Positions 13,146 to 34,327 of a DNA stretch of 64,000 nucleotides are shown piece after piece. Made by a program: the position numbers and the translations under genes. Position 1 is the first letter of the stretch. Every line of letters starts with the position of its first letter. Below the pieces are notes generated by a model. The model saw only the letters and a program-made list of their open reading frames with translations, was not told where the DNA came from and did not search any database. This stretch comes from Cytophagaceae bacterium (GTDB lineage: Bacteria > Bacteroidota > Bacteroidia > Cytophagales > Flexibacteraceae), in the NCBI GenBank assembly GCA_947458545.1, contig CANGYH010000001.1:1364001-1428000 (forward strand). Direction: 5' to 3'.

Positions 13146-13190
13146 AAACACAGAGCCCCGGCTGATGGTGTCAGCCGGGGCTCTGTGTTT
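13146..13190. terminator. Bidirectional terminator, 20-bp perfect stem
   Basis: Two perfect 20-nt arms (AAACACAGAGCCCCGGCTGA and its complement) enclose TGGTG. The A/T ends on both sides would give U-tracts in both directions. It lies between the convergent permease and sigma-factor genes. Confidence 0.85.
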
Positions 13191-21304: not shown

Positions 21305-22213
21305 CTAGGCGGCCATGGCCGCTACCTGCCGGTTGGGCACGTAGCTGGCTGGGGCAGGCTTTGTGACGGGCCGGGCCGGGGCTGGGGCCTGCATCTCGCG
21401 CAGGGCGGCGCGCATCAGCTCATAGTCGGCGGGCAGCTGGCGGATGCAGCCAAAGCCTTGGGCGTTCTTCTCGCCCAGGCCTGCCAGCCAGGCTATGCGG
21501 TGTAGCTCAGGCGGTGCCACAAGGGCAAAGTCGCAGTGGAAGCCGCGCACCTTGGTCTCAGCCGTGGTGCCTACGTTCAGCCCCACCAGACGGCTTTTGG
21601 GCTCAGAAAGCAGCTCGAAGCGGATGCCTTCTATGTTGATCTTCTTGCCCGTAAGGGCCTCGTACTTGCGGGCCAGGTTGCGGGCCAGGGCTGGGCCAAA
21701 CTCAGGGTCTGTCGGGGCCAGGTATTGCTGGCAGAGGCGGCCATGGTGCCAGCGGTTCACGCTCACGGTGAGCGGAGAACTGGTGCGGTAAAGCATCCGC
21801 TGCCCAAACACCGGCTCGGTGAGCCCTTCCATCCGGCGTACCTGGAAAAGAATCGGCTGCAAGCCGTTGGCTATCCTTAGCACAGGGTCTTGGGCCAGTC
21901 CGCGGGCAAAGTAAATGGCGGCCTCGTCTGAGAGGAAACTCACCTCGAGCTGCACCTCCTCGCTGAAAAGCTGCAGGCTGTCCTCTTGCTTGAGCAGCTT
22001 AAAGTGCCGCACCTCCAGCGTAGAGAAGGTAAAGAACCGAAAGCCCTGCCCGGCCCGCTCGTCAGAGCTGTAGCCTTGCTGGCGCAAAAAGGCGGCATAA
22101 AACGGGTTGGCCGTATGCAGGGTACGGTAAACCCAGGCAGAAAGCTCGCTGGCATAGTTGATGGGCAGCACATCTACAAGACCGGTGCGGGTGAGGGTAA
22201 GGCGGTAGCGCAT
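21305..22213 (-). CDS. cas6: Orphan CRISPR endoribonuclease Cas6
   Basis: A 302-aa RAMP-fold protein resembling Cas6, the enzyme that cuts CRISPR precursor RNA at the repeat hairpin. It has a ferredoxin-like first strand (MRYRLTLTRTG), a helix with LHTANPFYAAFLRQQGY (candidate catalytic His near residue 34), FRFFTFSTLEV, and the C-terminal glycine-rich loop WLAGLGEKNAQGFGCI. A Pro/Ala-rich tail of about 30 residues after it is unusual. The ATG at 22213 starts at the conserved first strand, so upstream extension is rejected. No cas1/cas2, interference genes or repeat array occur in the window. Family call firm; function in isolation unknown. Confidence 0.88.
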   Translation of the reverse strand: MRYRLTLTRTGLVDVLPINYASELSAWVYRTLHTANPFYAAFLRQQGYSSDERAGQGFRFFTFSTLEVRHFKLLKQEDSLQLFSEEVQLEVSFLSDEAAIYFARGLAQDPVLRIANGLQPILFQVRRMEGLTEPVFGQRMLYRTSSPLTVSVNRWHHGRLCQQYLAPTDPEFGPALARNLARKYEALTGKKINIEGIRFELLSEPKSRLVGLNVGTTAETKVRGFHCDFALVAPPELHRIAWLAGLGEKNAQGFGCIRQLPADYELMRAALREMQAPAPARPVTKPAPASYVPNRQVAAMAA

Positions 22214-22251
22214 GACGATTTTGGGGTTGGGCGTGACGATTTGGCTTGTTT

Positions 22252-22275
22252 GGCAATGCCAGCACAGGCATTGCC
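22252..22275. repeat. 9-bp perfect hairpin upstream of cas6
   Basis: GGCAATGCC and GGCATTGCC enclose a 6-nt loop, 38 nt upstream of the cas6 start codon. A cas6 mRNA starting above it would carry a stable stem-loop of the size Cas6 proteins bind in CRISPR repeats. Confidence 0.6.
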
Positions 22276-22325: not shown

Positions 22326-22381
22326 GTGATGGGCGGTACCAAAAAAGTTTGAGCGGTACACCAACATTTGGCCGCTACTGA

Positions 22382-31568: not shown

Positions 31569-31625
31569 GCCATGGTCATTATGCAAAAAGGCCTGTGCCA
31601 GGCCTTTTTGCATAATGACCATGGC
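31569..31625. repeat. 27-bp perfect hairpin between rpmF and plsX
   Basis: Two perfectly complementary 27-nt arms (inner part AAAAAGGCCTG and CAGGCCTTTTT) enclose TGC. It may terminate rpmF transcription or regulate plsX, whose start is 78 nt downstream. There is no T-tract after the outer arm, so it is not a standard terminator. Confidence 0.8.
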
Positions 31626-34215: not shown

Positions 34216-34223
34216 TATCTTTG
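34216..34223 (+). promoter_or_regulatory. TATCTTTG promoter of the SRP RNA
   Basis: An exact TANNTTTG match ending 4 nt before the first base of the SRP RNA closing helix, which fits initiation at about 34228. Confidence 0.7.
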
Positions 34224-34227
34224 CAAC

Positions 34228-34319
34228 GGCAAGTCTGTACGACCAGCTCCTGCTGAACTCCCCCAGGACAGGAATGTAGCAAGGGTAGGCGGTTGTAGCG
34301 GTGCGATACCGGGCTTGCC
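34228..34319 (+). ncRNA. ffs: Signal recognition particle RNA (4.5S-type)
   Basis: About 92 nt. GGCAAG at the 5' end pairs with CTTGCC at the 3' end. The middle holds the Ffh-binding domain IV: a GGAA tetraloop closed by ACA/TGT (ACAGGAATGT), flanked by CCCAGG on one side and AGCAAGGG on the other, which form the conserved internal loops. GGTTGTAGCGGTGCGATACC resembles the distal part of Bacteroidota SRP RNAs. A T7 run at 34321-34327 ends it. The RNA works with Ffh in co-translational membrane targeting. Confidence 0.92.
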
Positions 34320-34327
34320 ATTTTTTT
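34320..34327 (+). terminator. U-tract terminator of the SRP RNA
   Basis: Seven Ts follow the GGCAAG/CTTGCC closing helix of the SRP RNA, forming an intrinsic terminator. Confidence 0.7.

Follow-up and report, generated by a model that had tools for sequence, protein, structure and literature searches.

We put at about an even chance the reading that P0001, a 302-residue protein, is a lone and probably non-cleaving Cas6b that is kept for RNA binding in a genome without CRISPR-Cas as far as tested. Its gene lies in a window of 64,000 nt, the whole stretch of DNA analysed, from Cytophagaceae bacterium (contig CANGYH010000001.1, assembly GCA_947458545.1). P0001 has kept Tyr29 and the double-RAMP fold with its Gly-rich loop, but has Arg44 in place of the catalytic His. 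On this account it would be maintained to act on some cellular RNA, much like the Cas6-related Pyrococcus proteins that are its nearest folds. We infer that catalysis has been lost, that RNA binding has been retained and that a cellular role is under selection. If P0001 has been recruited to cellular RNA, binding is a more likely task than cutting.

The family of P0001 is well defined. In an alignment, most relatives start in register with the ATG at 22213. The frame stays open 5′ of this codon up to a TTG at 22342, an extension without counterpart in the relatives. P0001 scores above the cut-offs of TIGR01877 (1.6e-27; 97.3 bits against 58.65) and Pfam PF01881 (6.9e-25; 88.7 bits against 23), and it also matches Pfam PF21350 (4.4e-9), the PADLOC Cas6b model PDLC01782 (1.6e-60) and the PDB sequence 5yi6 (6e-16). 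The AlphaFold2 model has a pLDDT of 93, and its top Foldseek matches are all Cas6 or Cas6-related proteins, the first being 3qjj, 3ufc, 5yi6, 3i4h and 3pkm. Both the double-RAMP fold and the Gly-rich loop that mark Cas6 and Cas6b were found. By profile, sequence and predicted fold, P0001 is a Cas6b-type protein. ORF analysis, profiles, sequence and fold confirmed the sequence-only reading of the gene as a 302-residue Cas6 with a Gly-rich loop and a Pro/Ala-rich tail.

Table 1. Features of the P0001 locus (positions in the 64,000-nt window).
Feature	Position	Strand	Evidence and remarks
P0001, Cas6b-like, 302 aa, apparently monocistronic; ATG at 22213, stop at 21305	21305..22213	−	ORF, profiles, PADLOC, PDB, AlphaFold2, Foldseek
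Gly-rich loop GLGEKNAQGFG of Cas6	21449..21481	−	sequence, alignment
Pro/Ala-rich C-terminal tail	21308..21394	−	absent from aligned relatives; model confidence drops there
Arg44 codon, aligned with His46, the catalytic His of P. furiosus Cas6	22082..22084	−	alignments
Tyr29 codon, equivalent of catalytic Tyr31, kept	22127..22129	−	alignments
Arg59 codon, at the position of catalytic Lys52; relatives mostly K or R	22037..22039	−	alignments
Terminator-like stem-loop, 12 bp, downstream of P0001	21205..21232	−	between P0001 and the BBP2 porin gene
SPFH/Band_7 protein, divergent neighbour; the hairpin lies between it and P0001	22411..23262	+	profile
Hairpin GGCAATGCC-TGTGCT-GGCATTGCC, perfect 9 bp, 6-nt loop / 24-bp dyad	22252..22275	−	sequence, folding, shuffles

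The codon score (0.709) and GC3 (0.77) of P0001 lie in the upper range of the 24 background ORFs of the window. P0001 therefore looks like a native or long-resident gene and not like a recent arrival, its codon usage being host-like. A frame left intact over a long residence suggests a function. Nothing unusual surrounds P0001: a BBP2 porin is encoded downstream, past the terminator-like stem, and the further neighbours are the divergent SPFH protein, a VWA protein and a radical-SAM protein. No PADLOC match was obtained for the four neighbours tested. Elsewhere in the window lie a Bacteroidales-type small SRP RNA (34220-34324, + strand; RF04183, 83.5 bits), a perfect inverted repeat of 27 bp around a 3-nt loop (31569-31625), no perfect stem listed for the window being longer, and a perfect 20-bp stem (13146-13190).

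The active site was mapped with a HMMER alignment of P0001 and P. furiosus Cas6 (3pkm), in which Tyr31, His46 and Lys52 align with Tyr29, Arg44 and Arg59 of P0001. The spacings of these residues in the 3pkm sequence, 15 and 6 residues, agree with the published triad. The full Tyr/His/Lys triad is absent from P0001: the Tyr is retained, Arg44 replaces the His, a change that the sequence-only reading overlooked, and Arg59 replaces the Lys. In a set of 26 CRISPR-type proteins, the 25 relatives aligned with P0001 all carry the catalytic His, and Arg is found solely in P0001. In P. furiosus Cas6, no activity is detectable with Y31A or H46A, and K52A lowers activity 40-fold (PMC3652601). Canonical cleavage by P0001 is probably lost or very weak, because Arg44 occupies the place of the catalytic His. 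However, the loss of this residue does not prove a loss of activity, since Sulfolobus Cas6 cuts without it (PMC3652601). The S. solfataricus enzyme Sso1437 resembles P0001 in lacking the canonical His but differs from it in acting on CRISPR repeats, in being dimeric and in cutting by means of networked basic residues that crenarchaeal Cas6 proteins conserve (PMC3652601). In P0001, His33, located one helical turn past Tyr29, could in principle replace the catalytic His.

P0001 deviates at 7 of the 41 highly conserved sites of the 26-protein alignment, K213N, F107A and Q110P among them. The one member of the set that deviates more, the CRISPR-linked protein L019, does so at 12 sites and retains the His; divergence alone therefore does not explain the loss of the His from P0001.

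CRISPR-type Cas6 was found at E ≤ 1e-20 in about 65 of 391 genomes of the order Cytophagales (profile search, counted by hand). The relatives L047 to L052 sit in gene clusters that resemble cas operons, as judged by eye from ORF starts and not by profiles. Four of them were tested for arrays and showed 30-nt repeats, for instance ATTTCAATTCCTCTATGGTACAATTAAGAT; the repeat of one relative is ATCTTAATTGTACCATAGAGGAATTGAAAT. These repeats are A/T-rich and fold weakly in the crRNA orientation (-1.4 to -3.5 kcal/mol). P0001 belongs to the same sequence family as the Cas6b of type I-B systems (TIGR01877, PDLC01782) and shows its double-RAMP fold and Gly-rich loop; Tyr29 is likewise shared, as is a basic residue where Lys52 stands. 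Unlike type I-B Cas6b, it has no cas operon and no array that we could find, carries Arg44 instead of the catalytic His and ends in a Pro/Ala-rich tail. No close relative and no orthologue of P0001 was found in GTDB contigs, viral contigs or phages, and a plasmid search returned two Cas6 proteins of 23-37% identity. P0001 is placed on a long branch (1.28) whose exact position in the tree is not fixed. A different, divergent Cas6 is encoded in another genome of the same family (G005, L064:6653-7366), near putative cas genes, one of which has an HD-like N-terminus by eye; this context suggests that a sister genus may retain a type I system.

Alternatively, P0001 could be a relic in decay: selection on it would have ceased, with the frame not yet broken, and it would be what remains of a type I-B system that was lost, or else a gene that was transferred alone. 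The deviations at seven conserved sites, including that of the catalytic His, and the long branch are consistent with decay too, and the searches, which found neither partner cas genes in the host genome nor an orthologue, also speak for a relic. Nevertheless we regard it as unlikely, although it deserves serious attention, given that the 302-residue frame is intact, that the fold is modelled with confidence, that codon usage tends towards the preferred end of the host range and that the gene has its own terminator-like stem.

A function in RNA binding, the reading we prefer, has a possible precedent among the best fold matches of P0001, the Cas6-related proteins of Pyrococcus (3qjj and 3qjl, both PH0350, and 3ufc of P. 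furiosus). Like P0001 they have the Cas6 fold, and the region of the catalytic His is missing from them in the alignment. The entry title of 3qjj reads 'One RAMP protein binding different RNA substrates'. We take PH0350 and 3ufc to be non-catalytic. Their identity to P0001 is only 21-23%, and they come from archaeal hosts that bear CRISPR.

The leader of the gene contains exactly the hairpin that the sequence-only reading had described, a perfect 9-bp stem with a 6-nt loop. It is located 38 nt 5′ of the ATG, inside the divergent intergenic region, and has a folding energy of -17.7 kcal/mol (z -4.15). When the 197-nt leader was shuffled 5000 times with dinucleotides preserved, 24 of the shuffled sequences contained a perfect stem of at least 9 bp with a loop of 3-10 nt, which makes the hairpin rarer than chance. 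There are 10 distinct stems of this kind in the 64 kb, and one is present in 36 of 1277 segments of 197 nt across the 64 kb. For a site picked by eye, the hairpin is unusual but not extraordinary. The host genome holds one exact copy, three scattered copies at 2 mismatches and other scattered ones at 3 mismatches. Its reading as a repeated genomic element is thereby rejected, as the exact site is single-copy.

The proposal that came with the hairpin, namely that P0001 is an active RNase on cellular RNA and possibly cuts its own mRNA at this site, fared less well, and self-cleavage there is unsupported. Such an enzyme would need an active site rebuilt from Arg44, Arg59 or His33, and we consider it improbable. 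The hairpin is real, rarer than chance and only 38 nt ahead of the start codon, and the Sulfolobus enzyme Sso1437 is functional without the His (PMC3652601). However, P0001 itself lacks that His, the substrates of its relatives are weakly structured, A/T-rich 30-nt repeats unlike this G/C-rich stem, and no second exact copy of the hairpin was found. Whatever the protein does, the site may be a DNA element and not an RNA one: a candidate operator in which two GGCAWTGCC boxes, each close to a palindrome, lie 15 bp apart in the region that separates cas6 from the divergent SPFH gene. We entertain this possibility with some reserve. Each arm of the hairpin is nearly palindromic itself, which makes the site an inverted and a direct repeat at once, and its location between divergent genes and single exact copy point the same way. 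Near-palindromic arms would suit an operator between divergent genes no less well than they would an RNA substrate.

Apart from Cas6 itself, no cas gene and no array was found in the 64-kb window, as the sequence-only reading had noted. The search was carried to the host genome, which comprises 3,233,599 bases in 9 contigs, is unclosed and is 99.73% complete. Neither Cas1 nor the RAMPs, DevR and Cas_Cas7 families, Cas7 being covered by three Pfam families, gave a match at E ≤ 0.1, and the control genomes were positive. Pfam PF10040, which is not the Cas6 model that fits P0001, gave no match either. Arrays were sought by scanning for two TTGAAAS or two ATTGAAA handles at a spacing typical of arrays, these being the two handle types covered. 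The TTGAAAS pattern misses the ATTGAAAT handle of the relatives, and the ATTGAAA pattern was added. Pairs of TTGAAAS handles gave six scattered matches and no array, at least two of the six being heptamer tandem repeats; no pair of ATTGAAA handles was found. Tandem runs of the heptamers TTGAAAG/TTGAGAG at C1 46695 and C5 163046 (L010 and L015) mimic CRISPR handles in pattern scans. Finally, as assemblies tend to break at arrays, 6 kb at every contig end were searched for periodic repeats and for the cas genes of a relative; none was found there, and the positive-control loci were detected. The genome-wide check for CRISPR arrays, by both handle patterns and at contig ends, was thus negative. 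The description of cas6 as stand-alone consequently extends far past the 64 kb, because neither Cas1, Cas7 nor an array of the relatives' type was found in the 3.23-Mb genome; it holds genome-wide as far as the tested cas families, the two handle patterns and the contig ends reach. Service in trans to a distant array, the other suggestion of the sequence-only reading, is very improbable: an array on a plasmid, in a collapsed repeat or with an untypical repeat might escape an unclosed assembly of 9 contigs and patterns for two handle types only, but the genome is nearly complete, its contig ends carry no periodic repeats, and the idea is unsupported because there is neither Cas7 nor Cas1 to use or make crRNA nor an array of the relatives' repeat type.

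The host genome encodes a second Cas6-like protein. Its gene (L046:7484-8281; G000:C1, about 418.5-419.3 kb, − strand; profile match in the order search at G000:C1:418558-419103) adjoins a Sua5/YrdC gene. The protein belongs to a family set apart from CRISPR-type Cas6 with a tree support of 100/100, whose members are 34-40% identical to this copy. A model of this type of protein has the Cas6 fold (pLDDT 84), and its top Foldseek matches are Cas6 or Cas6-related. The family occurs in 177 of 391 sampled Cytophagales genomes and in 78 of 130 genera, with a single match in nearly every genome. About 138 of the 177 genomes gave no match to CRISPR-type Cas6 (listings compared by hand). In a sample of the phylum, strong matches were confined to Cytophagales and weak ones occurred in one other family. 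A scan of GTDB contigs yielded 232 loci. The analysis used the best 80 of them, and those with a taxonomy are mostly Cytophagales. Among these best 80 of the 232 loci, the flanks carry ychF in 59, DUF3276 in 53 and DUF58 in 51, and queries with the relatives' Cas1-7 and Cas10 gave no match.

Over the same best 80 of 232 loci, 62 positions of the ychF-linked family are at least 95% conserved, and R2, R4, H20, Q21, K52, G53, K195, K196, R199 and R213 are invariant in all 80. The region of His46 is missing, and the invariant His20 is found where the first helix of the model begins. The catalytic His of TtCas6e and PaCas6f is located in helix 1 (PMC3652601). P0001 resembles the family in its Cas6 fold and in having no CRISPR partner nearby, whereas the family is separate and widespread and has invariant residues of its own; its motifs HHQ or xHQ, FSGLKGQ, KKFARIY and E[VI]RGYT are not found in P0001. 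P0001 looks more like CRISPR-type Cas6 than like this family. Co-ancestry of the two was neither shown nor rejected, the tree uniting them having a p-AU of 0.443. Of the four members that were scanned, two score above the NCBIfam Cas6 cut-off and two below it, one narrowly and the other, the L046 copy, by a clear margin; many members are therefore probably annotated as CRISPR genes. This family seems to be a case of true domestication of Cas6, and a stronger one than P0001.

To our knowledge, Cas6 is known almost solely as a servant of CRISPR arrays. We tentatively propose, at somewhat less than an even chance, that it has left CRISPR twice in this genome: once as the order-wide, mostly single-copy and usually ychF-linked protein, whose conserved but altered active site would serve a housekeeping role in RNA processing or RNA binding, and once as the His-less Cas6b P0001, kept for cellular RNA. 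If this is true, an array-less, His-less Cas6b and an order-wide Cas6-like family would together represent an RNA-recognition fold domesticated for ordinary cell biology. The annotation 'Cas6' in Bacteroidota is by itself no evidence of CRISPR. The ychF-linked family is conserved, is mostly present as a single copy and occurs in named isolates, which opens it to direct testing. A published account of isolated cas loci in general makes no mention of cas6 (PMC5294841). Our literature search, mostly without subscription journals, returned nothing on point for stand-alone Cas6 or a link between Cas6 and ychF, and no published report of the ychF-linked family. In one genome (G047), a family member has a short run of repeats (L058:2545-2830) a few kb away; these have a period of about 72 nt and are unlike the relatives' CRISPR repeats in sequence.
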